Below, piece after piece: positions 7,087 through 63,648 of a stretch of DNA of 64,000 nt. The stretch spans positions 1 to 64,000 of the forward strand of contig RCNN01000107.1 in NCBI GenBank assembly GCA_003667245.1, written 5' to 3'. Source of the stretch: Heterostelium multicystogenum (lineage: Eukaryota; Evosea; Eumycetozoa; Acytosteliales; Acytosteliaceae). Below the pieces are notes generated by a model. That model searched no databases and was not told the DNA's origin. It saw only the letters and a program-made list of their open reading frames with translations. Each line of letters begins with the position of its first letter. Within the stretch, counting starts at the first letter, position 1. The position numbers and the translations under genes were made by a program.

Positions 7087-10000
7087 ATTATTTATTATAA
7101 ACTCTGCTCAAGTTGCTCTATAAATACTACTGCTATTATAAAATGTTGTAAAATAAAGTGATTGATTGATGCAAACCAACAACCCTTTGCAAAAAATAAA
7201 TAAAAATAATTTTGGATAAAAAAACACAGAAAAAATTTTCAAAAATTTAAATTTTGCTGTTTAAAAAATAGATTTTAAAATCAAAAACTAACAAACAATC
7301 ACAACTGTTGGATCCTGTCCTCTCAAAATATTGCGATAATCTTTTTTAAAAAATACTACTAGCTTTAATTGTAGAGATAGTTGTATCTTATATATAAATA
7401 TATATATATATATATATTATAGGTGTATTGTGAAAATAGGATGATATTTCTTAATGTAAATAAATAGGTATTATTATCTTAGAATCACCATAGTAAAGCA
7501 ATAATATGTTCCTTAGAATACTTGATTGATTGATTGATAATTAAGCATTGTAATTGTAGTATCTTTAAAAGTAGGAGAGTTGGTTGTAACTATATGTCCA
7601 TATATGTTGTTGTTTGTTTTATAGATGAGTGGTGGTGGATTTAAGTAGTTGATTATGTTGTTTTAATTTATGAATTTGAATTGTTATGGTTATTTCATTT
7701 GCATAGATGAACAAGAATGGAAATTTGAATTTTAATAATAACTATTATTTCTTTATTTATTGTTTCAATGGTTATGTGATGTTTATTATTATTATTGTTG
7801 TTATTGTTGATTTTAATATTGTGTTGTACTATTATTATTATTATTATTTAATTTAATTTTAAGATTATTATTAGCATTATTTTTATTAAACAAGAATAAA
7901 ATTAACTACTTATTTATTATTAATTCATTTATATAATGGTATATAGTTAATTTAAATTTATAACAACAACAATAATAATAAAAATAAAAGCAACAAATTA
8001 GCAAAAACAACATGGTTATTTGATTTAAGGAATGGCTGTAATTGTAGCCATCAGCTTTACTTGTTTTTGATTATTATATTTATCTTTATAGTAATACTAA
8101 GCTTGATTATGGTTCGATTTGAATCATTTCATTTCAAAATTAATTGATTGATTGATTGTTTGAATTGAATTTAATAATGTTTGTGATTTTAGAATTGAAA
8201 TAATGTTGTTGTATAGTAGCAGTGTCATCGAAACAATAAACATTGAATTTAGGAGTGTTCTTCCATTTGGTGTTCTGCAATCACCTCCTCTTCTAATTCT
8301 TTTGCACAATCAACATTAGTGAGAAATAATAAACAATACACAAATTTTATTGGTGTTTTCTACAATTGTTCTATTTGTTTGATAGATTGATTTTTGACTG
8401 AAGTAGTGTAGTGTTAGATGTTTAAGTGTGTATCTCTATTATCCAATTTAAGTGTGTTTATTAATCTGATTGTATTGGGTGACATTTCATAACAAAAAAC
8501 AAAATTATATTTATTGTATTTACTATACTCCATGAAAATTTACCTATAATTATTATTATTATTAAGTATTCTATTATTTATTATTTTATATATATATGCT
8601 AAGGATAAGTTCCAATATTAATCTAAAACTTAAATTACTAATATAATTCTTTACTTTTGATATGATTCTACAATTTTTTTATGAACGATTGTAGTATTTT
8701 AAATTACTATGACTGGTTATAGTTAATATTAAAAAATTGATTGCAATTTATTGGACTGATTGCCTAAAACTATATTTGCAAAACAGGAGTTGGTTGTTTG
8801 ATCGCTGATCCCCCACCTTTTTTTAAAATGGGGAATTAATTAACCAACCCTCTTAATGATTTTTAACGAGGTGTTTTGACAGTGTTAAATTTGGTGTTTG
8901 ATGCATCAATCAAATAAAATTGAGATATAGGTTTGTTTGGTTTTTATATATGTATAAATAGAAGTTGATGGTATGTATTTTTGTCATTGTTCAAGTCATA
9001 CCAATTTACTTTAAAGTTGGCTCTACACAATGATGTAATCATATATTACTTACAATGACTCTCAGTCTTTTGGTGAATGTCTTTCTGTTATAAATAAAAT
9101 TCTGATTCCTACTTTTCTGAAATAATAAAAGTTGAACGTGTTGTGCAGTGCGGACTGTTGTTGTGCAAGTTGAACTATCTAGATATCTATTGGAATGTCT
9201 CTCACACTATATCTAATTAAGTTGACACCTATCTGAATTATCTACCTGCCTGATTGTATGTATGTACTATATTATTCAATTAATTTAACTTAATTCAATA
9301 ACATTCAAGCTCTATATCTATAATAATCAATTAATTATTTGAATTGAATAGATTTGGTGAGTATGGGTATGAATTGGATTTTAGGACCAGGATTAGGAGT
9401 AAAAAATTATAACTATTAATAAATAGGATAGATTATGGTTGAATAATAAATAAAATAACTAATAGATATATTAATTAATTAAGAAAAAATACTATTAATT
9501 TAATATAGTATACTATTATATTGTTGTTGAGTATAAGAAACTAATAATATAACAGAGTTTGGCTTTGATGTATGATAATTATCATGATGATTTTTTGTTG
9601 GAGGAGAAAGTACGAATCGTCTAACTAATGTTGGTATTTTGAAATCAGATATTTTAGAGAGAGATTTACTTAAATAATGATCCAAGTGGAGTGTACAACT
9701 AACTATTACTTTTTAATGATGGTGCTGATACGGATTATGATGTTGGAGAATCGTATTGTCAATCATAACAACAAGTGCAGTAAAGTAAGAACATCTCAAA
9801 AGAGTTACTGTTTGAATTAAATCATCAATCAAATCAATCAAATCAAATCCACTAAAAAATACTAACAACAAATAAATATTGATTATCAAACCTATGTTAT
9901 GGATATTTGAAGTGTAATTTGAAGATAGTATTGAGTTGAATACCAAAATGGTAGTCGTAGTAGTAGGCAGTTGATTACACGATTGTGAATAAGAAGTGTC

Positions 10001-25802: not shown

Positions 25803-28800
25803 ATGGATAATCATTTAACTAGTCCAAGTAGTAGTGGTATCGGAAGTGCGGGTGGTGGTGGTGGTAAACCAACGCTTTTCAAAAATATATTTATATCGTT
25901 GGATCCGACATTTTCGTTCACTTTGATGGACAATTTCTGCAGAGGTGTGTCGGCACAAAAAACAACTGAGATCTTCAACTCTCTACTCTCCCTCCTAGAT
26001 GACCATTTCCTCGAGCTATTGCGTGTGTACATTAGAATTAATTTACCTCAACAGAGTACGATCAGCCAAAATGACGATGCTTCTTTTTTCAGCTTTAAAA
26101 AGTAAATATACCCAACTAATCCCAATGCAGGTGGTAGCTCCTGTAGCAAGGTAAAACTAACCAATCTTGTCATCTCCATTACATTGGTACAGCGTCGTAA
26201 ATAGAATGACATCTGCTTATTTAAAAATACATTCAAGTTCATCGGTGGAAACACTTTTGGCCAATCAGATGCAGGTTCTGGCAGCGAATATCCAGCAGTT
26301 TTGTTTAAATAATAGTGGTTCCACCACTTTGTCGCCACAGTCGAATTTTGTTGGAAACTCAGCGAATTACGATTTGAGTTGCGGAAGTGATACTAGCAAC
26401 TACAGCAGCTACAGTGGAAATGGTAGCAGTTTGAACAACGACGAAGCACTTATTCAATTTGCGATATCAATTATTACCTACATTTGTAAATCACACGATA
26501 AACTGTCGCCACAAACCTACCTCCTTATGCATCTGCTCCACAGCGAAACAAGCAGTGTGACCAGTCCGAGTGGCGATCGTTACAATGTCGAGTTAGTCAA
26601 GCGCATATTCTTTGGCAAACTGGTTGTGCCAACACTGGCAAACATGAAGCCTTCGGCATCTGCATCTTCGCTCACCAAAAAAGTATACGTTGAAATCTCA
26701 AAGATTGTCAGCGATCTTGTCTTTGAAAAGAGAGTATACCAGACAGCAAGATCAGCGGATTGAAGATGAGCACGATGGGACTACAACAGCAGATAAACGA
26801 CTTCTTCAGCATGATTGTTCACCAGCTGCGACGTAGTCAATCATTTACGCCACCCAAACCATCGGCAGTCAACAAAGATGAGGCATATGCCTACTTTATC
26901 CATTATCTAAAAACAGAATCTGTGCAGCTCGACGAATTTTTCAAGAAATCAAAGGACATTGGTGCTCCTAATGGCGAGAGAAACTATTATCTATATGGTG
27001 TTTTCAAAGAATTGCTGAATGGATTAAAGTCGATTTCAATGGGTGGACTTGGACTGACAAGCTCCACTCGCACTTCTGTACATTCATCTCCACAGCAACA
27101 CCATCAACATCATCACACAACAGGAAGAATCAGATCAACGACAGGCATTGTCGAAGCCGAACTCAAGTTGTCAACGCTCACTCCATTTTCACCACAACTT
27201 CCCCCAAAGAAAAGATTCACACATCGAATTTAAAAAAGTGGTCTTCGGACGACTTGAAATCTGTATACAATGGCAAGTCCTATAAGCGAAGATGCGCAGT
27301 TTTAGAGAGACAATCAAAATCCAAAAGATATCCTTACTTTCAACATTTATACATCCGATACAAATATGGTTGTAAAAAAACATTCGTTTACCGTTGACTG
27401 TCACTATCCGTGCATTGATGACTCGACTTTTATACGACCAGGAAATGTCAGACGTCAACTATAACAAAGAAATACAGGACTATGAGCTGGTTGTAAAATA
27501 CTCTGAGCAAACCGTTCTATTAGGTGTCGAGAACTGCGATAACCGTGAGGTACTCTGCGAAACCGAACCTACCATTGTGGATGTATGACGTAGACAACGA
27601 GTGCACCATTATCTTTAGGCCAGAGAAGAAGAGGGCATCTCAGCCATTCTCTATTTATTTGAAGTGTCTATTTCCATCGTTGCCAAGCAATGCACTAGAC
27701 TCACCACGTAGCTCCAACCCAAGCAAGAATCCAGTGATCATGTTTGTTAGCTTACAGCTCAACCCTAAAACAATCATTGAAGAGACATTGCTCAAGCATG
27801 TTATAGAGCTCGATCCAACTCGTCTCGGACTGTTTTTATACGATCTTGATGAAAATGCACAGGGATTGTTGCCCTACCAGATTCCAAGCGATCGTGTGCT
27901 AGCTGGTAACAAGATAGGTACCATGGACATTTTGGAATGTAATTTTAGATATGCATTTGAATTCACTGCAACCAACGAAGATATCAATGTAACAAAATTA
28001 ATTGAACAAGATACAGCTGTAGAGGTGGCAACAACCACTCTAATCAATGCTTCACTTAATAGCAAAAACAACAACACTGTCACACCCCGTACAGATCCTA
28101 ATCAATTCTCCATTGCAAATTGTTTCGCAAAAGAATCAACTACCTGGATTCCTCAATGCAGGCACCAGACTGTCTGATTATACTCTCAATGTTGGTGATG
28201 AGATATTAATCACTCCCAAACAGCTCGTCACACTTGTCGATAAGATCGAAAAGAAAAAGCTACTTTCTAATTCCAGTGATGAAGGTGCTCCCGACAGCTC
28301 TGCTCATTTGAAAAAACCCGATACATCTGCATCATTGGCAACTCCTACAAGATTTAGATTCAAGGTTACATGGATTGGACCAAAGAAAGAAACTAAAGAC
28401 TATAATATCAATCTATCGCCCCTTATGTTGTTGGGTATTCCTCCATTAAACACAGCAGCAATTAATCAACAATTGGCACCTGGTACACCATTGATCAATA
28501 TAGCTCCATTTGAAAAGAGAATTTCCATCTTTTTATCAAAACTCTATCACATTGGATCCATCGTTGGTCGCAAACTCCAAATCCAACATTTGTATTAATA
28601 ACGATGTTAAACTATGTTTTGTTGGTGATGAAAGTCCTGACAAGCTGTATTTGTTCAACATTCTCAAAAAGTCAGGTGTTACACGTCGTGAAGGTCTTGG
28701 CAACACTGTCCAAACACCTACAGCAACTCCAGGATTAAATAGTCAAGTAGGCAATACTGAACGTGAAGATGACACTGGTATTAAGACTTCAGATTGGATC

Positions 28801-31800
28801 TATAATCAACCAGAGCACCAGATTATATTGTTGCTTTCAAGATGTATTATTTCAGCGGTTTGGAAGTTCACCAATCGACTCATCCACTCTTTGTAACACC
28901 AGAATCAATCTACATTGTCACATATCCAGCAACCTCTTTGAATGAATCAACCATTGAATATTGGATGGAGATTATACAAGCGAAATCACCTGGTTCCATT
29001 GTCATTTTGGTTGGAACAAGCACTGACGATCCATCAAAGAAAACTCAATATGTATCACAGACATTGTTGTCGCGTTACACCAATGTTCTCCATTACATTC
29101 AGATCAATGTCAAAAACATCAAACAAGTCCGAGGTTTGATTCATTCTATTCACGCAATTGCAAAGCAAAAGGCAATTCCGTCAGAAGATCCCAATTCCAT
29201 TCGTCCTCCTCAGAAATCAGTTAATCGAAGCATGCAAAGAAGCATCTAGACACTCTCGCATCCCTGCAACTTCACTTTCAAAGATTCGTTCCATTGCAAA
29301 ATCTATCAACTTGGAATCAATACAGATAGACGACGCCTTGAAATATCTATTGAAATGCGGTGACATTCTCTATTACCACGACGAGGGTGAGAACCAAATG
29401 CTGAATGATATTGTGTTCCTCGAACCACTGTGGTTATCACGACTTCTATCGTCCGTCTCTAACCTGAAGCATCAGAATGGATATCTTTTGATGGGTGGAA
29501 TCTACCAGGCATGGGATGATAAGTATCCTCGAAGCATTCACACATCATTGACTCACCTGCTCGAGCAATTCGAGATTATGCATAGCAACACTGGTGGTGA
29601 TAATGGTGAGAGTGACAGTATCATTGTACCAATGTTGTTCTCAGAGGAGCGTCCAAGTGTCATGATAATGCTCTGGCCAGAATACGACCATATTCGTCAA
29701 CAGAACGAGCGTATTTACCAATTCCAATTCCTTCCAAAAGGTTTCTTCTCTCGTCTTTCGGTTAGAATGCTACAAAACTTTGATCCACTCTGCATTTGGC
29801 AAGGTGGAATGGTCATTCAACCGGCAGGACAAGTCTGGGCAGGAGCAGCTAAAAACGATCATGGTCAAGCGTTTATCGAATACAATCCTTCTCAATATCG
29901 TTTAAAGATGACCGTCAGAGATATCAAAGGAGGACAACTTCTCAGAAAATCTCGTCGACATTATTTCATCATTTATCATGTGGTATTTCCCCGATCGACT
30001 AACCAATACCTACGTAACATGTACTCACTGTATCGAGTCACGTCGCAAAGAAAATGCAACCATCTTCTCATTGGACTACTGTGAGAAAGAAGCAATCTCT
30101 TGGTAACGACTTTGTTATGTGCAGCGGAGTCCATCAAGTTAAGCTTAGTGAATTGGCTTTCGAAGTTACAGTACATAGCACTAAGTTCTCCATTATCCCA
30201 TTCAAGGATCTAAAGATTGGTCCACAATTAGGTGCTGGTTCATTTGCAAATGTGTATCGTGGTCTTTGGAATCAATCAGAAGTTGCCATTAAAAAGTTAA
30301 ATCTCGAAGAAGACGATACAACAACAGAGAAATTCAGAGAGTTTAGACATGAGGCCTTGATTAGTGGGTAAGCATTTGAATACAGATAGTTGTTATTTTA
30401 GTTGATATTTAATATTAATATACTTTTGTTTACAGTGATTTACATCATGAGAATATTGTATCATTGAAAGGTGTATCAATGAATCCATTTTGTATTATTA
30501 CAGAGTTGCTAAGATATGGAGATCTATCGAAATTCCTCAGAAATACTACAGATACCTGAGTTGGAATACTATATTAAAGCTGTCGATGGATATTGCTAAG
30601 GGTATGTCGTTCCTTCACAGTTGTAAACCAATGATCATCCACAGAGATTTAAAGAGTGCCAATATCTTGCTGGGTGGTACGTCCATTGACACCGTTGTTG
30701 CAAAGGTATCTGATTTCGGACTCTCTATTCGTAATATTGATAAGGAAGTCAAAGGTCGTAAGGTCTGGAACTGGCGTTGGTTGGCCCCAGAAATTATCAA
30801 GAACCAACAATACACCGAGAAGATTGACATTTACTCCTATGGTATGGTTATTTGGGAGTTGCTTACTCGTGATGTACCATTTGATGAATACTTTGAAGAG
30901 CTCAAGTGGAACAGCGTTATTGAGGACAAAATCATTGGTGGATTGCGTCCAACGATCCCATCTGAGTGTCCTGAATCGTATCAATCACTCATCAGAGAAT
31001 GCTGGCATGAAGATCCCAAGAAACGTCCATCATTTGAAGAAATCATTGTAAAATTGAAACACATGCAACAGACCTTCCCACTAGCCACCAAATTGGAATT
31101 CAAGAGATCTGCCTATCACTCCGTCGAGAATGGAGTCGATTTTTCACCAATGATTAACCAAATCGATTCTCCATGCGACACACCGGGTCGTATCACTGAC
31201 AGTGACATGCTCGTTGGCGTAAATACAAGATTCGACAGACATTTACCATCACCTGCCGGACTCGAGCCTATTGATTCGCCAAGACATCATATTGGTGGTG
31301 CAGACATTGGTGGATCCAACCCTGATTCAGAAGACAACATCTCAGTTGTCTCAGCAACACCTACCATGTCCACAGTCAGTCAATTCATTCCTCATAGTAG
31401 CTCATTCGTATTGGAGGACCCACCTCTTGGATTCCGTGAGTTCATATCGTCAATGTTAACCTCTGCAATTCACTGCATGCTCTATATTTACAATAAGCAA
31501 GAGCCACAAGTTTGGTGTGGATGTGGTGATGGTTCAGTTACTGTATTCAACTCCAACTCGAAATCCATCGTCGCCAGCTATAGAAGTCCAGAGTCAACAA
31601 GAATTATCGGAATCACACAAGTCAGAAAATCGAAAGGAAAGATGGTAAATCCACTAGACGAAGAGATTCAAATTTGGGCATACTATTCCGATGGAATTCT
31701 CATCTACGATCCCAAAGTACCATACAAGCCAAGTAGAATCATCAAGACCAGTTATATCTCCTATCTATTTGATGATGGTAAAGCTGTCATTGCAAACTGC

Positions 31801-32515
31801 AAAGAAAAGAATGTAACTGCCATTAAGATCTACAGTAAAACTGTAAGTAACCATTTCATATCAAAGCTAGATCAATTGTTAACACTAATCATTTCAACTC
31901 CAGAAATTCAAATGTAAAAAGACGATAAATCTAAAAGATTAGCGATGGACATATTTCAACAATGGCATACATAAAGAGTGCAAATGATTCAAAGTGTTGG
32001 ATTGGAACAGAAAAAAGGAGTTATCTATGTCTATGATCATCCAAGTTTCTCAACCTATTTTCACAATCTCTGACGCACATGCTGGATCTGTTCACACCAT
32101 CAAGAGAATTGATCGTAACATTTGGACAGCGAGCGAAAAGACCATTTGTGTATTCGACGGACCAGTTGAATGTAAAGAAAAAGATTGATAACATCACTTC
32201 GAAGGTTCTCAGCTTAACCGCACACGAACGATACATCTTTGCATCGTGCTGGGATACCTCTATTCTGGTATTCGACAAGGAAAGCTTCCAGTGTCTCCAG
32301 CAGATGAGTAAGAAAACACTCTGACCCAGTTAGCTATGTGGTCGCTGTTAAGACACAGACCTTTGGCATCTCTGAGCTTTGGGCATTCGTCATGGGACAA
32401 GAGAATATCAGTGTACAGCATTTGCGAATCAGAACAAACAGCAGAAGAAAGTTCAAGCAGTGGATATGCGACCATCTCAAGTAGTACACATCCCTTTCAA
32501 ATACCTCACTCATGA
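25803..32515 (+). CDS. Roco-family protein kinase: RasGAP-like region, ROC-COR, TKL kinase, WD40-like propeller
   Basis: This protein of about 2,150 residues belongs to the LRRK-like Roco family. Order: N-terminal RasGAP-like region (about 25890-26830; FFGKLVVPTLANM resembles the RasGAP FLRFINPAI block), two or more ubiquitin-like/RBD-like segments (27400-28250), ROC (28600-29170), COR (29240-29960), tyrosine-kinase-like domain (30200-31070) and WD40-like repeats (31440-32450). The kinase looks active: GAGSFANV loop, VAIKK, HRDLKSAN (about 30640), DFGLS and APEI. ROC is degenerate. The P-loop reads GDESPDKL at 28624-28647, and the switch II site reads YFSGLEV instead of DFAGQEV. No leucine-rich repeats were seen. 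Introns are clear at 30368-30435 and 31842-31902, and likely near 26150. Many single-base breaks occur, for example near 28150, 28590, 29220, 30050 and 30555. The C-terminus is set by a TGA at 32513, reached after a frame change near 32420. The RasGAP call is the weakest part. Confidence 0.85.
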
Positions 32516-38684: not shown

Positions 38685-41600
38685 CTAATCAATCACTGAA
38701 TCATTTGATTGATTGTTGTTATTTAGTTTAAAATAGACTTCTAATCCACTTTCCCTATTTTAAAAAACGAATTAGAATATTTTATAAATTTAGTTTCAAT
38801 TTTAAAACTTACCAAAAGAATGAAATAAAATTAGAAGTCTCAGATGGAGTAGGTAATTCACACACTAACTCCAATTCATATTTGGTGCTATAGAATGACC
38901 CATTAGAACGATATTCGATGACTTCATGAATCTCAGCATGGAAATCGTATTTGGAAAGAGGATGATCGGAGGGTGGAGCATAGCATGTTATGCTCTTGTG
39001 GTATCGTATGAGATATACATTTCCAACAAATGCAGATAGAATCGTGATTGGTGCCATATTATCATCTGTTGAGCCATTTGATGGTTCTCGTGGTTGAACA
39101 ACCTTCCTAGTAATATATTCCGAGTAGGCTAGATCAGCAGTAGTATCTTCGGGTTGATATAGTTTTTTAGATTGAATACAATATCTAATATCTAAAGAAT
39201 CGGATTGATCAGAATCTGTCAAATCACATACACACCAATTCAATCCTAAATTCTTTAGTTTGTTTGGAGGTTCGAGAGATGAATTGATTCCAAGTTTGAA
39301 CTCAGGGATGGTACGAGAGTTCATGTTGCAACAAAGTGTATATGTATCGTTTTCATTTTGATCCTCAAGGTTAAGTTCAGTAAGAGTCCAACCCAAGCTT
39401 TCGAAAATTTGACACAGTGATTGATGGCTTTTTGTTGCGCTATTAGTAAAGAATGCACTCTTTGGACAAGTTTGTTTGGCAAAACCATTTTTGTTATCAG
39501 CTTTTCTTTTGGTTAGGGGCTTTGTACCAATTCCAATTTGCTCTTCCTTTTCTTTTTTCTCTTTTTTCTTACTAACCTCTCTCATTAATTTCTCCTTCAA
39601 TTGAAAGTTTCTCTTTCTTGTTTTTGAGATGGATTTCTGGAGCGATGAAATTGTGTACTCTTCACCTTCATGTGGACAATTAAACAAATAGATATGTCCG
39701 AATCGGATATAAGCCTTTTTCTTTCCATATTTTTTCTCATCTACGTACTTGTTGCATATATCCATTTGACCCAACATAGTTCTGAAAAACTCTAATTTTG
39801 CGCCCATATATTCATTAGGAAGGTTCAAATGTTTGAGCTGAGGCATCATCTTGGGGTATTTCATCGAGTGTTGAATATTGAATGTTTTATCCTTATTAAA
39901 TTTAGAAAATTTAATGGTATCAGAAATTCCGTTACATCCTTTAAATAGAAGCACAGTTCCGCCTCCAGGGACATGACTCTTTCCGCTATGAAAAGGAAGA
40001 GATGTGATATCTTGAGATGCTTTAACCAGCTCTTCAACTGCCAAATGAATTTCATGTGGCTGGCCAGTTACTCTGACTTGTAAGCATCCTCTCTTAGATT
40101 GTTCAATAAGGATATCGGCATTTGTCAATGTCTTGATTTTACTTTGTATATATTCTTCGCTTCCATAAATATGTCTTGACATAATCTTATCAAGATTAAT
40201 CACTTTAGACTTATCATTTCTGCAACGATTTAGGAATTGAGAAATACTTGGGCTCGAACTTAGAGTATGATATCCAACATTGAAAATTTCAGCAAGATAA
40301 TCATCATTGAGATCTGAACCAAAAATGAGAGACGGAACATTTTCCAAATCCAATGGACATTTAAGGATATATGGCTCCTTTTCTCTGAGGTATTGCGAAA
40401 ACTTGTTGGAATAGTATTTGAAAAATCCAATCAAATATTGAGCAAGAAAAACCGAGTGTGTCTTTTTGGATTCATCTAGGATTCTGTTGAACCAATCGAC
40501 ACTCTTATTCTCAAGAGGATTTGAATAAGAAATACTCTCAATGATATGCGTTGCTTTAAAGTAATGAATGACCATCCATACTAAAGACCAGGTTTTGATG
40601 TTTCTTGCTTTCGATTTCTGATAATGATGAGTTATGATACCAGTTTCTCTTGCCCATCGGATAACAATGTACATAATTGGTAAAACAAATGGATACTTTT
40701 CATAGATGCCACAGACCATTGCTGTTTTGGAAATACCATTTTCATCACATGAAATATCGCAACTAATCTTGTTGAGTTGAAATTTTACAATTGGAACAGC
40801 AGTGTTTTTGAATATATTTCAATCGACTCCGCCTCTGATTCATACTTTCTGAGAGCCACCTCTACTTCCTGTAACAATTGATGATGGTCGCCAAATTTAT
40901 CTTTGATATACAAGTCTAAATCTGAAGCTATAGGGTCAAATAATAACATTGAAGAGGAACCAAATACCAATATTTCCACATCCTCCAGTTCTAACTTTGT
41001 CTTTTTAAACAGTTTCTTTATATCGTCAACCATAATGATACGATCTGAATATCCTTTGAGCAAAGCAGTTTGATTTTCTCCAAGGAAATTGAGAATAGAG
41101 GTCGATAAATAATCTGGCTTTTCGTGTCCAGTTTTAATTTGACGCTTAGGCTGAAATCCTTAACAATCCAATAAAAGCTGAGTGTATGGTCGATGCTTTT
41201 ATCAGAATAGGCCACATAGTACCAAGCTGACACTTTTTTCTTGATTTCTAAACTGCTGTATCTCTTTTTCTCATCAATAGTGCTTCCAGGAAACACTCTA
41301 ATAAACTCATCTCTGAAGGAGTCCTGAATTTGATGGTAAGTTTGTTTTGAGTTCATCTATAATCAACTTAGTGTAGTGCATGGAGTTGATTGTTTCTTTG
41401 ATGAATTCAATTATAATATCTTCTTCACGATCGATATCATATCTAGTCAATAAGGAGTTGATTGCAAATTTGTATCTTAAATAAGTAGACATTGCATCTC
41501 TTAAATACTGTTCATAGCCAGCAACCAATAATCCCTCGTCTACAAAAGTATCTGGGATATATCTTGGGATGGCTTGTAAAGGTACTGATATTTGATAAAG

Positions 41601-44600
41601 TTTACCTAATACCCTGTGAGAAACCCAATAATCTTTCTTTGGCATGGAGCTTTCCATGAAATTGGGATAGGATCTAAAAATAGTTCAAGATTTTTTTAAC
41701 ATCATCTGGTACTTTTCCATGCACACCAGTCTTTACTGAATCAACCTCTATGAAATGCTGAACAGCAAGTTCAATTGCCGTTGGATGTGTAGGTGTTAAT
41801 TTATCACAAACTGCAAGATGACTGAGAGCAATTCTACCAAGACTTCCACGCTTTATATTTGTTAGATATTGATTCACCAATTCTTCAAATGATCCATTAA
41901 ACTTTGGTTCTTCAGTATTATTACTAACATCAATATCATCACCTAAAAAGGGGGCATGTGGCTGAATAAACTTGATCATCTCTTGGTTAAATCCGACAAA
42001 GTATCTGTCACCATCCAAATCACTTCCAGAGCACTCCTTGAAGTTTGGAACTTCTCCTTGTTGAGAGAATGCAATAACATCTACATAGACATCTCTTAAA
42101 ATAGGAATATCTACTGCCTCCAAGACACGAATATCACCGGGATGTAGACATGGATTCTTGCACACAAACACTTTACCAGTGATGACTTTACGTGTAATAA
42201 TTCCATCCTTCTCATTTGAGATTTGGAGAAATACTTGGTTTGGGCCCAGTAAATGAGATTCATCCGATATACCAAGTACTGTTCTAGCAGAGTCGATTTC
42301 TATCATACACTTGTCTTTGATTTGGTCCAACTTTTTGAGATAACACAACTGCAATGATGAAGAAATGAGAGGATCGTTTGCGGCTAGATCCAAGTCATCG
42401 AACGCATCATCAATACTTGAGAGTTCAGCTAGAATATGATGACGAACTGTTTCATCTCTGAACATTTGAGCAAGCTTGTCCAAAGCATTTTGTTGTAGTG
42501 TTAAAAAGTAACCATCCAATACATCCAGTCCACTGAGTAGATTGATAATTTGACGATTTAGATTGCATGTTTTCTTACCACTAACGCTAATAACTTCAAT
42601 CTTCATATTGTAAGCATGCTTTCGAAGAGCTTTAAATTTTTGCATTGATTTCCTTAAATATACACCAGTTTCAATAGTTGGATGGACAGAAATAACACCT
42701 TTGTTTCCACCGATTCTTATTTGAAAAGCTGAAGTATCCAATGGGAAATTACCTGCTTCTGCAATCGCCTTTGCTGTTTTATATCCAACATATCCCTAAA
42801 GTCCTAATATTAATACGGATTGTTTTGAGTTTAGTTCAGAATAAACCTTGAAACATACACATCCTTCTGTGAAATTATGTCCATTATTTTCGATATCATC
42901 TACAGCTTCATGGAGCTCGTTGTTTGGAACAGCAATAGTTGGTATGGTAGATGGGAAAACCAAAGACAATGCTCTCAATACTTTTCTGGCACTCCAATCT
43001 GGAGGAATATCACCTAGCATAGCTTTTCGAATTTCAGCCAATCTTGCATCCTTGTCCATGCCTTCCTCCACACAATAAAACCATGATTGATAGTTTCTGG
43101 CCTGTGAAGAACTTGAACCAAGGAAATAGAATGTGCCCAATCCAGGTATGTCGATACCATTTGTAAAAATGTATCGGTAATATTCCAACAGAAACTCTTG
43201 ATACTCAATACGGATTTGAAAAATCCTCTTCAGTTAATTGGACAGACATGAATCTTTCGGCAGGGAACACACGAATACATCGATTTCCAAGTTGAATTCG
43301 AGGCTGATTGAAAACAATTCTCGTGGGTGTGATATAGGCACTCTTGACCAAGAAATGATGTTCAGGGATTCTTACATTGAAATTCTCTGTCAAACTCGAA
43401 AATATCAGTTTCAATCAATGCTTGGTAGCTTTCAAACTCCTTGAGCTCAATGGCTCTATTAATTAAATATAGTGCAGCAAACCTCATTCCATCATTGACC
43501 AATTGAATAATATAATCAAAGAATTCTTGAGGGATATTCTTGCCATACCCTGTTTTGCAATTACTATAGATAAGGAAAATTTGAGTAAATATTTCATTGA
43601 TAATAACGAGATTATAATTGGTTACCTTTTTAATACAGCAAATAGATATAAAATTTTTCCATATCCTTAAACTCTTTTGATGATTGTTCTTCAACTTGGT
43701 CACTTGAATTGGTTAAAAGCTGGGTATTTGGGACATTGCTTGGAACAATTTTAATGGATGCCAAATAATATTGGATGTTCATCATTGATACCAAGTCATG
43801 GAGTTCGTTTGGGTCCACACTGATTCTGTATACAAAACAAGTGCCTAAAAATGGATAATTAATTGAGGTCTCTCTTCCTTTTACTGAAATTTTACTAAAT
43901 AAAAAATCATCATCATCATTATGCAATTCAACTACAATAGGAGGCCGTCTTACAACAAGATAGAATGATCTCTCTTCGCTGTTTGGATCACAGTCGTATA
44001 GAGCAAAACTCTCAATACTTTCATTGATGAAAGTAAATCGTATTTCACCAATTTCAACTTCCAACTGTCTATTTTCACCATAAAAAAACTACTACATTTG
44101 GGAAATCAAATTCCGACCTGAAAGTTGTTGGATCAACTAAGTTCCCAACTGACATATTGCCACAGAAGGCAGTGAAATTATAGAAATTGTTTCTGTTTGG
44201 TTCTGGAATATGGAGAATCAATGGACGAGTAACCTTTGCCCACCAACCTTTAACGCTGTACAAAGTTTGAAAATATGTATTTCAAGCTAGCCTCTACATT
44301 CTTGCTGTTATCCTGATTACCATCTCCATCTTCAAATCCCATTCTAACCAACAAGTAGTTCGACAAATAGCTTCTTGATTCTTTTGTTGCTGTTTCTTTC
44401 CTGATATCCATTAAGTTGTTTTTTCAATCTACTTTTAAGTGAAGCTTTGAAGTGGGACGAGTAGTTATAAAATGAGATGAAGACTTCCTGTCTATTTCCA
44501 AGCTGCTGAATACCACTGGTGACCATCTCCAACCGATCCGGTCGAGGTGGGATATACCGATTAACTAGACTCGCTTTTTCTTCATTCATAAACTCCTTTA

Positions 44601-46636
44601 TGATTTGATTGAGTAAAGCTTCTGACATTCGAAGGTCATCCATTTTGTCAACAACATCATGTGGTGTAACATAGCAGAACTCTCCATCATCCTTATTACG
44701 AGCACGTCCACGGCGCTGAATCATTCCTCTCAAATCCAAATCATCATCAAAACAGAGTACAAAATTACATCTGCTTACATCTATTCCTTCTTCAAGAACA
44801 CTGGTTGATACCAATAATTTAGTGAAGGCCAGCGTGGAACTTCTTCATGATGCTTTCTTGCTTCTCGGTGTCCATTCCATTATCCTTTCCGTGTCCAAAG
44901 ATTACTTTAGCATTGACCTTGGAGTTTGAAGACTTCTTTCTTGAGCATATGTAACAAAGCGTTACCAGTCGATCTTTTCTTTACAAAGATAATTCCTCTG
45001 AACTCTGCCACCTTCTCGTCGCTATCTAACTTCTCAGTTATCTTCTCCACAACTTTTAAATATCTAGATGAAAACAAAAGCCTTTGGGCACCTTGGTTAA
45101 TCAAGGCATTTCTAATATCACTAATAAGCTCTCTTATCTTCCTTTTGATGATTGGAGAGCTTAGATCGTTCTCAATGTTGTTTAACAGCTGATTGAATCC
45201 CTCAACGCCAGTTACTATCAGCCAATTTACTATTCTCATAATATCACCCAATTCACTAGAGATGGGGCTGTCACTGTCGATGCTCCACTTGTAGTACTCC
45301 TTTAATTTGCCAGTGAAATCTGTATAATTCTTATGTGTCAACTCCAGACCAGATCTAAAATAATTAGTCTCATTCTTGAGCTTTTCAATCCTCTGATTAA
45401 TAAGAATTCTGACTGCTTCGAAGCAAGCTTTCTCTTCCTTGGTATGAATAAAGACCAATCGATTCGAACCTAGATTGCTGGTAGGTGGTAGATCTGGACT
45501 GAATATTCTGGAGTGTAGGACTCTCTCAATCTCAGTGATGTTCTTGATGATCTTGTCCCGATCCTTTCCACTCGATGGACTGGCTGAGAGACCAAGTATT
45601 CTTGGTAAAAAGTGAGATTCTTGCTGCTCGTATAACCTCATGACCTTGGTGTAGGAATGATCACCAGTGGCATGATGGACTTCGTCAAAAATGATTGTAT
45701 GAAAATCTATGAGCCCCACTTTCTCTGGCTTACTAGATTGATAAATGAATCGCACGTAGCCACAATAATGTCGCGGACGATTGGATGGTAGCTTAAAACT
45801 AATCTTTTGCTTTGATCTATTTTCGCCATTCAACATGAGCACCTTCATCTCTGCGTTGTGTTTCATGATGGCTTTGGACTGTTGAGAGACCAAGGGATTG
45901 GTGTTGACAACAAACAGAACCATTCGCTTCTGATACTCAACGTCTTCTGGAGTCCAGGCATTTCTAGCTGACATCTGCTGGATCAACATGATAGATACCA
46001 ATGTCTTTCCAAGACCAGTCGGCAAAAACCAATAGTGTATTCCTCGAGATTGCTCGCTCAAAGTGATTCTATTTGATATGGGTAGGGTCTATAACCTCTG
46101 GTTTCAAATGATCCACATCGATCTCCAAAGGAAACTGAGTCTCTTTGTATTTGAGCTCCACAGTAACTGGCTCGTCCTCTTCGTCGGAATCATCTGCTGG
46201 CTGTAACTCTGGTGAGTGATAATCAAGTAGCCTGATAAGGTTCCCATTTGGTGCTCTTCAACAATCTTTGGCCACTTTTGATTTCTTTGAATACGTTTTC
46301 GATATGTAGTCTTTCCCCAGTGCAACTTCTTGATGATCGAATGTATAGATATGGCCTTTCTTTAGTTTGTTAAGAATTTCAGAGCCAATCTTCATCTTGC
46401 AGTTCGAACAGAATATCTTATTTATACAAAACTCAACTCTGGGGTTTGGATTCAAGCCAAGATACCAAGTACTGGCAGACAAAGGCAACTCAAACGTTTG
46501 CTAAATGTATTCCACCATTTCCTTCTTTGTACAAATACAACTTTGAAAAAGGTACGATTGGCTGTTGACATGATTTGGATTTACAATATAAATAATCTTC
46601 TACCTGATTAGCTATCACAGGTTGTACCGCATCCAT
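38685..46636 (-). CDS. RNAi polymerase: Dicer-type helicase, RNA-dependent RNA polymerase and TUTase-like nucleotidyltransferase in one protein
   Basis: This protein would copy single-stranded RNA into double strands for small-RNA production. The Dictyostelium RrpA/RrpB enzymes already pair a Dicer-like helicase with an RdRP. Order (about 2,600 residues): Cys-rich N-terminus (46390-46600); SF2 helicase with PTGLGKT (46022-46002), DEVHH (45686-45672) and QRRGRARN (44718-44695); RdRP with FTEGCGYVGYKTA around the intron at 42858-42796, and catalytic DLDGD at 42021-42007; then directly a nucleotidyltransferase. The last has GSSS...SDLDLYI (40961-40905), a third carboxylate in ISCDIS (40758) and a PAP-type central helix region (WARETGI). 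A KH-like stretch and a Lys-rich segment follow. The start is the first in-frame ATG, at 46636. A final intron (38812-38755) adds 22 residues up to a TAG at 38685. At least a dozen single-base breaks interrupt the frame, mostly in homopolymers. No intergenic gap exists anywhere inside. Confidence 0.9.
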
Positions 46637-47215: not shown

Positions 47216-48668
<1,453 letters not shown>

Positions 48669-61808: not shown

Positions 61809-63648
61809 TTAGTTCTTCTTCTTGATTGGACCAATCATATCCTCTGGACGAACCCATTGGTCGAATTGCTCGCTTGAGACGTATCCAAGAGCAAGACAGG
61901 CCTCCTTGAGAGTGGTCTTCTCGGCATGGGCCTTCTTGGCAGCCTTGGCAGCCTTGTCGTATCCAATGTATGGGTTGAGTGCGGTGACCAACATCAATGA
62001 TTCGTTCATCAATTGGGAGATACGCTTCTCGTCAGCCTTGATTCCGACAACGCAGTTCTTGGTGAAGGAAACTGCACCGTCACCCAAGAGACGGATTGAC
62101 TGCAAGAGATTGGCAATCATGACTGGCTTGAAGACGTTCAACTCGAAGTGACCGTTGGATCCGGCAACGGAGATGGTGGTGTTGTTACCCATGACTTGGG
62201 CGCAGACCATGGTCAAGGCCTCGCATTGGGTTGGGTTGACCTTACCTGGCATGATGGAGCTTCCTGGCTCGTTCTCTGGGAGCAAGAGCTCACCCAAACC
62301 GCAACGTGGTCCAGATCCAAGGAGACGGATGTCGTTGGCGATCTTCATGAGTGAGACGGCGACGGTGTTGCATGCACCGCTGACCTCGACGATGACGTCG
62401 TGAGCAGCCAAAGCCTCAAACTTGTTTGGAGCAGTCTTGAATGGGATGTTGGTGAGACGGGCAACCTCGGCGGCGATGGCAACGTCGAATCCAACTGGGG
62501 TGTTCAAACCAGTACCGACAGCAGTACCACCTTGGGCCAATTGGTAAAGACGTGGGAGAGTAGCTTCGATACGGGCAATACCGTACTCGATTTGGGTGCA
62601 GTAACCAGAGAACTCTTGACCAAGAGTCAATGGAGTGGCATCTTGCAAATGAGTTCTACCGATCTTAATGATGTGTTCGAATTCCTCTTGCTTCTGCTTC
62701 ATGGCAGCCAACAACATCTTCAAACCTGGCAACAAACGTTGGTTAATCTCCATAGCGGCAGCAATGTGCATGCAAGTTGGGAAACTAAAAATGGATCAAC
62801 ATTAAAGTTGTTCGTTAGTTAGATGGCCATCCTCTTTAAAGTCAACCTAGTATCTCTGGGCTCTATACCTACGTGTCATTGGATGATTGTGACTTGTTTA
62901 CATGATCATTTGGATGGACGGCCTTCTTTGAGTTGAGAAATCTCTTTGGTTGGTCATCAATTCGATGGCTCTGTTGGAAATAACCTCTAGAAGGGGAAGT
63001 TAATGATTCTGTCGTTTGTGTTTTGTTGTTCTCTGGAGGTGATGTGATCTCTTGGACTTACCGTTGACATTCATGTTGGTTTGGGTACCAGAACCGGTTT
63101 GGAATACAACCAATGGGAATTGGTCGTCCAATTTACCAGAGATAACTTCGTCGGCAGCCTTGACGATGTTGTCAGCGATGGTGGCGTCGAGACCGAATTG
63201 CTTGTTGACAATAGCAGCAGACTTCTTGAGGTAATCCAAAGGCTCTGATGACTGGGATTGGCATCTTGGCAGATGGACCACCAATATCAAAGTTCTCCAA
63301 TGAACGTTGGGTTTGGGCACCCCAGTATTTGCTGTCGTCAACCTTGATCTCACCAAAAGTATCGAATTCAGATCTGTATGTAGTCATTGCTCTGATAAAT
63401 GATTGATTTAAATTTGATTTCTATTTCATTGATCAACAACTTGTAGATTAGTTTTATGCAATCGAATCGATTCGCGTCATATGTCAATGATCAATATCTA
63501 GCTACTCTACTCTTGGTCGATCTAAGCTAATCTAACTACACTCAATCAACAATCAACAACCACAACAACAACAATCTAGCTAGCGACATGTCGATGAGAA
63601 TTGACTTACCAAAGTGAGGTTGGTAGCACTCTTAAATGAAGATAACAT
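61809..63648 (-). CDS. fumH: Fumarate hydratase, class II, probably mitochondrial
   Basis: This enzyme catalyses fumarate + water to malate in the TCA cycle. Class II features: [27 protein letters not shown], and the superfamily signature [13 protein letters not shown] near the end. Exons: 63648-63610 ([13 protein letters not shown], a mitochondrial-targeting-like leader), 63391-63062, 62986-62873 and 62784-61809. An ATG at 63387 right after the second splice site opens [13 protein letters not shown], the start of the mature-type enzyme, and would give a cytosolic form. As read, the first exon joins one base out of frame. Other breaks lie near 63238 (AFG then LKKSAAIVN) and near 62920 (RDFS then VHPNDHVN). 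The main exon is clean. Length is about 490 residues with the leader. Confidence 0.92.

Follow-up and report, generated by a model that had tools for sequence, protein, structure and literature searches.

The stretch analysed here (the window) comprises positions 1 to 64,000 of contig RCNN01000107.1 from the dictyostelid Heterostelium multicystogenum (assembly GCA_003667245.1), and carries on its minus strand a gene for a cellular RNA-dependent RNA polymerase (RdRP) that also encodes a helicase and a nucleotidyltransferase. The gene was modelled by a three-frame reading of the minus strand, with X placed at the joins. The reading starts at an ATG at 46636, closes with a TAG at 38687-38685, and gives a product of ∼2620 residues once joined. 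It is made of 21 segments and 20 joins; frame changes account for 18 of these, and the other two are introns with GT-AG borders. A first-pass annotation, made from the sequence alone, had described one minus-strand coding region between 38685 and 46636 without an intergenic gap. Both end points are right, since an ATG lies at 46636 and the last exon closes with TAG, and the joined reading gives one gene, although with its 20 joins it is no single open frame. From the N to the C terminus the product contains a Cys-rich N-terminus, the helicase, a middle part without a family, the RdRP, a nucleotidyltransferase palm, a helical domain, a KH-like stretch and a tail with conserved blocks (Table 1).

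The helicase carries PTGLGKT and DEVHH on the piece 46025-44937 and QRRGRARN on the piece 44823-44371 of the minus strand, which we take to be the Walker A, DExH and VI motifs, respectively. Its unjoined pieces matched the Pfam families ResIII (2.7e-15), DEAD (1.2e-9) and Helicase_C (1.2e-8). In the PDB, the helicase piece matched 47 sequences at E≤0.01, the best being AncD1D2 (1.7e-19), and these included Dicers, RIG-I, LGP2, MDA5, FANCM and a Dicer-related helicase; the structures of Dicer, RIG-I, LGP2, MDA5 and the 'Dicer-related helicase' presumably belong to superfamily 2 (SF2). The three motifs (the last as QRRGRAR) and the Dicer and RIG-I relatives in the PDB together mark a helicase of the Dicer/RIG-I type. 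With the RdRP, PF05183 was matched over the cut-off at 4.1e-86 on one uninterrupted piece and also at 3.1e-11 (7.7e-97 in the genome-wide search), and the DxDGD motif of cellular RdRPs is present as DLDGD. All seven PDB matches of the RdRP core were RdRPs (best 2.6e-43), and the best of them are presumably plant enzymes.

Downstream of the RdRP, FGSSSMLLFDPIASDLDLYI is encoded at 40964-40905 of the minus strand, and CDIS follows, with a third Asp at 40758-40756. The three carboxylates that the first-pass annotation had assigned to a nucleotidyltransferase are all present (DLD and the third Asp in CDIS), also in the second gene described below, and every helicase, RdRP and nucleotidyltransferase motif that it named was found on the minus strand. 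The joined domain matched PF22600 at 2.8e-9 (37.6 bits, cut-off 27), while the unjoined 124-residue half stayed under that cut-off (6.3e-4, 20.3 bits). A two-sequence profile of the domain matched 18 distinct PDB sequences at E≤1, and 18 of 18 were RNA nucleotidyltransferases: GLD-2 was the best (1.4e-9), and the others included Tailor, 'Poly(A) RNA polymerase protein 2', CutA, URT1, TUT7, pla1 and a uridylyltransferase. The label 'TUTase-like' (terminal uridylyltransferase-like) of the first-pass annotation is not established, because the profile matches include GLD-2, a poly(A) polymerase, and CutA as well as the uridylyltransferases Tailor, URT1 and TUT7. Nucleotide choice is expected in a region beyond the three alignments printed for the profile matches, which stop short of it. 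The helical domain of poly(A) polymerase (PAP) type, also proposed from the sequence alone, was borne out in part: conservation in the paralogue and the alignment of its first part with GLD-2 speak for it, and the PAP_assoc family lay below its cut-off.

The genome (29.7 Mb in 528 contigs, possibly incomplete) was searched for further RdRP genes. The four RdRP matches obtained fall into two loci, one in the window and one on contig C125, and both RdRP genes carry a nucleotidyltransferase. The paralogue on C125 has a frame of 1398 residues without a stop (locus L005, 5302-9498), in which the C-terminal half of the RdRP (1.7e-58, residues 16-240) is followed by PF22600 (3.4e-11, 43.8 bits, residues 416-532). 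Therefore, the fusion is no artefact of the joins made in the window copy. The first-pass annotation had put three enzymes in one chain and had named as the main doubt that the RdRP might be parted from the nucleotidyltransferase by a stop or by the start of another gene; at the level of genomic sequence the paralogue frame answers it, and the fusion is supported. The window and paralogue proteins align from the N-terminal region through the C-terminal tail, with a poorly conserved middle between helicase and RdRP and long low-complexity inserts in the paralogue, whose helicase motifs in the alignment are YGKT, DEAHH and QRRGRAR. In the nucleotidyltransferase region the identity is 34% (MAFFT), or 31% over 351 columns (BLAST), and both copies retain the G-S motif, D-x-D and the third Asp. 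With PF22600 over the cut-off in both (37.6 and 43.8 bits), these residues make up a Cid1-like palm. When the paralogue nucleotidyltransferase alone was compared with the PDB, only Tailor was matched (four of four matches, best 3.2e-4).

The two fused domains matched each other at 7e-53 (BLAST) and 1.5e-49 (phmmer), whereas the best of five other PF22600 loci matched a fused domain at 8e-5 and 7.7e-7, respectively, in a small database made of the open reading frames of at least 60 residues from those five loci. Since the fused domains are far closer to each other than to the free loci, the simplest reading suggested by these sequences is that one fusion occurred first and the duplication later. 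A 330-residue query starting at the helical domain found only the two RdRP loci in the genome. The genome search with PF22600 gave eight matches on six contigs and is an undercount, as the window's own domain was missed, probably because a frame change splits the palm. With PAP_assoc three matches were obtained, and neither fused gene was among them.

Table 1. Features of the three-enzyme RdRP gene, listed from the N to the C terminus of the product (window coordinates)
Feature	Position	Strand	Basis
Whole gene, ATG to TAG	38685..46636	-	three-frame reading, joins
Cys-rich N-terminal region (CKSKSC ... CSNC)	46267..46636	-	alignment with paralogue
Dicer/RIG-I-type helicase (PTGLGKT, DEVHH, SVLEEGID, QRRGRARN)	44371..46090	-	Pfam, PDB matches
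Cellular RdRP, catalytic DLDGD at 42007-42021	41677..43333	-	Pfam PF05183, PDB
Intron GTATGT...TTTAG inside RdRP, 63 nucleotides	42796..42858	-	sequence; rejoins FTEGC/GYVG in frame
RdRP C-terminal region and linker to nucleotidyltransferase	41154..41675	-	aligned with uninterrupted paralogue frame
Nucleotidyltransferase palm: GSSS, DLD (40914-40922), third Asp (40756-40758)	40711..41057	-	PF22600, PDB profile
Helical domain of poly(A) polymerase/terminal uridylyltransferase type, divergent stretch PLDLENVPS...FNVGYHTLSSS, borders approximate	40200..40710	-	paralogue conservation; GLD-2 alignment, first part
KH-like stretch	40012..40140	-	KH_Vigilin 0.0054 (16.7 bits, under the cut-off of 27); PDB vigilin 0.091
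C-terminal region, blocks VPGGGTVLL, RFGHIYLFN, LGWTL, IQSKKLY	38813..40011	-	blocks collinear with paralogue
Last intron GTAAGT...AAATAG, 58 nucleotides	38755..38812	-	sequence
Last short exon, TAG-ended	38685..38754	-	sequence; aligned paralogue without counterpart

The order of the parts, the presence of RdRP and nucleotidyltransferase in both genes and the catalytic residues of both enzymes in both copies are read directly from the genome. We propose, with a probability of about 0.6, that the product is a single polypeptide in which a helicase of the Dicer/RIG-I family, an RdRP and a Cid1-like nucleotidyltransferase with its helical domain work together, templates being tailed to favour initiation by the RdRP. 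The nucleotidyltransferase would put untemplated nucleotides on the 3′ end of an RNA awaiting copying, and the tail would hold or loop back the template end within the adjacent RdRP site, so that initiation would be favoured. The helicase would travel along the duplex, or clear it, ahead of dicing. By virtue of the fusion each RdRP molecule would carry its own tailing activity. The case for template tailing is drawn by analogy from other organisms: nematode MUT-2/RDE-3 places poly(UG) tails on transcripts, which recruit RdRPs (PMC8675287), and the fission-yeast RNA-dependent RNA polymerase complex (RDRC) has among its subunits a member of the poly(A) polymerase family, Cid12 (PMC5322907).

Several points weigh against this reading. 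The intactness of the window copy depends on counting its 18 frame changes as errors. For the helicase step the evidence is family resemblance, and in the paralogue, where a piece matched Helicase_C at only 0.16, the helicase is recognised by alignment and motifs. PAP_assoc reached 0.02 (15.6 bits, cut-off 22.6) in the window copy, and the paralogue was not listed. AlphaFold2 produced no usable model for the single window frame that it was given (39801-40800, 333 residues; predicted local distance difference test score 36). Finally, the conservation evidence comes from two paralogues of one genome.

Alternatively, the nucleotidyltransferase could act after synthesis, tailing the RdRP products or the small interfering RNAs (siRNAs) derived from them and so setting their stability or Argonaute loading. 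A precedent would be nematode CDE-1, which reportedly uridylates CSR-1-bound siRNAs (van Wolfswinkel, 2009, by its title as cited in PMC5886687), and uridylyltransferases are found among the PDB relatives of the domain. A turnover role, however, needs no fixed 1:1 link to a polymerase, which is an argument and not data, and we consider post-synthetic tailing unlikely. The probability falls further, to a distinctly low level, for a nucleotidyltransferase fold that has no catalytic role and is retained in the RdRP to bind RNA or to serve as a scaffold: the divergent helical region, with PAP_assoc below its cut-off in one copy and the other not listed, would be compatible with such a role, but the three Asp residues and the G-S motif have been kept in both paralogues despite 34% identity.

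The frame changes themselves bear on the intactness of the window copy. Eleven of the 18 lie near runs of at least four identical bases (in stretches of 31-41 nucleotides), compared with 38% of random 33-nucleotide stretches of the gene, a weak excess between stretches that differ somewhat in length. A class II fumarase gene is located at 61812-63383 on the minus strand (Pfam Lyase_1 4.5e-76, FumaraseC_C 4.2e-26). This gene, read from 63383 to 61812, is also frame-broken at least once, with TFGEIKV...RAFG in one frame and then ...MNVN in another and no room for an intron, a sign of insertion and deletion errors in the assembly. Elsewhere in the genome several myosin matches have internal stops, for some of which introns are possible. 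Because the fumarase gene is broken as well, the frame changes of the RdRP gene look like sequencing errors, and we infer that they are; the RdRP-nucleotidyltransferase frame of the paralogue is independent of this reading. Frame changes as the mark of a pseudogene were judged unlikely for the architecture, given the broken fumarase gene and the paralogue. It is most improbable that the gene in the window has decayed, or that adjacent RdRP and nucleotidyltransferase genes were merged by poor assembly, as its 18 frame changes against eight joins in total (introns included) in the paralogue might suggest, for the paralogue has both enzymes in one stop-free frame on another contig, a housekeeping gene in the same window is broken too, and the two copies share collinear conserved blocks up to the C-terminus.

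The gene has the hallmark of the dictyostelid helicase-RdRPs (Rrp), an N-terminal helicase fused to an RdRP in a dictyostelid genome. D. discoideum RrpA, RrpB and RrpC are likewise large proteins with helicase and RdRP, but two domains only are described for them in the available text, against a third here (PMC3661229, PMC4791657). The DEVH reported as second helicase motif of the Dictyostelium RDR homologues (PMC4791657) matches the DEVHH found here, and in Dictyostelium the Dicers lack a helicase, which the RdRPs encode (PMC4894637). In oomycetes, Hydra and Nematostella, too, N-terminal DEAD/Helicase_C domains are joined to an RdRP (PMC4791657). The string 'nucleotidyl' occurs 0 times in the main texts of PMC3661229, PMC4791657, PMC4894637, PMC5633606, PMC11014262, PMC6396948 and PMC4482531. 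Among the literature matches listed, no title or abstract start reports that a cellular RdRP and a nucleotidyltransferase are fused. We conclude that the gene is a variant of the dictyostelid helicase-RdRP with a third enzyme that is not described within the literature covered.

The first-pass annotation had called the fusion an RDRC in one chain. What holds is an RdRP in one chain with a nucleotidyltransferase of the poly(A) polymerase family. In fission yeast, the RdRP Rdp1 acts jointly with the helicase Hrr1 and with Cid12, a protein of the poly(A) polymerase family (PMC5322907, PMC9276528), but the three are separate proteins. Moreover, Hrr1 has as its orthologue ZNFX-1, an SF1 helicase (PMC9276528), and is not of the Dicer/RIG-I type; for this reason we do not use the name. 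The nematode combination of DRH-3, RdRP and tailing enzyme is a closer analogue: a Dicer-related helicase (DRH-3, with EGO-1 or RRF-1) is in every RdRP complex (PMC5886687), and the nucleotide tails added by MUT-2/RDE-3 recruit RdRPs (PMC8675287). These modules (DRH-3, MUT-2/RDE-3, CDE-1) are separate proteins, in contrast to the one chain found here. Rdn1 and Rdn2 of Tetrahymena are nucleotidyltransferases. The RdRP Rdr1 copurifies with Rdn proteins (PMC6562869), and differs from the fusion in that Rdn1 or Rdn2 are separate subunits of two alternative complexes.

As regards the other parts of the protein, the Cys-rich N-terminus is possibly zinc-binding, with cysteines only partly kept in the paralogue. 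It could be assigned to no family, as Zn_ribbon_9 stayed under its cut-off (0.022) and a single PDB match was obtained, at 0.57, and its identification as a RIG-I-like C-terminal domain was unsupported by the family and PDB searches. Vigilin was the single PDB match at E≤10 for the KH-like stretch, an assignment that is suggestive only. The KH-like stretch and later blocks (GGGTVLL, GxIYxFN) occur in both RdRP genes (L005 7414-8110 in the paralogue), and a long low-complexity insert, Pro-rich and with PPPPPPPTTPYPY repeats, separates KH-like region and tail in the paralogue (L005 ∼8466-8813, plus strand) but is absent from the window copy.

The upstream neighbour on the same strand is an uninterrupted gene for a TIP49/RuvB-like ATPase (47219-48589, minus strand, 3.2e-158). 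A probable Roco-type kinase gene lies at 26161-31914 on the plus strand (COR-A 1.5e-26, COR-B 8e-12, protein kinase 4.7e-38), in a region of overlapping plus-strand open reading frames in several frames, with three of five pieces lacking a Pfam match. NCBIfam gave no match for three proteins, and Rfam none at gathering cut-offs in the window. Pattern searches with the RdRP core and the nucleotidyltransferase alignment against viral contigs, and with the RdRP core against genome contigs, gave 2, 27 and 44 pattern matches and 0 confirmed ones, with few patterns and viral or prokaryotic collections.

In the genome as a whole, six RNase III matches were found, two each on contigs C106 and C307, one on C511 and one under the cut-off on C480; the pairs on C106 and C307 are Dicer-like. 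Five Piwi matches lie on C116 and C83. Judged from these matches, parts of the RNA interference (RNAi) pathway are present. At least 150 Dicty_CTDC repeats occur in the genome (150 of 248 candidates were scored), against 0 of 14 control genomes, those named being bacteria or archaea; such repeats fit a dictyostelid genome.

The nucleotidyltransferase may be a shared unannotated domain of RrpA, RrpB and RrpC. Taken further, all dictyostelid RdRPs, those three of D. discoideum included, would be three-enzyme self-template tailers with an overlooked C-terminal nucleotidyltransferase, the 3′ tail starting the second strand in cis. We put this forward tentatively, as a conjecture with the odds somewhat against it; if it is true, tailing and RNAi amplification, carried out by separate proteins in nematodes, would be one catalytic cycle here. 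Tailing enzymes work with RdRPs in ciliates. They act likewise in fission yeast and nematodes (PMC5322907, PMC8675287). A coupling of tailing to initiation is hard to test where each enzyme is a protein of its own with further functions. The covalent fusion in both RdRP genes found suggests, as far as gene structure can, that the coupling is direct. There would be reason to re-examine D. discoideum RrpC for a third domain; without RrpC, DIRS-1 small RNAs are largely reduced in that species (PMC5633606). The interest of the fusion is that it connects the tailing of RNA with the amplification step of RNAi in a way that can be tested.

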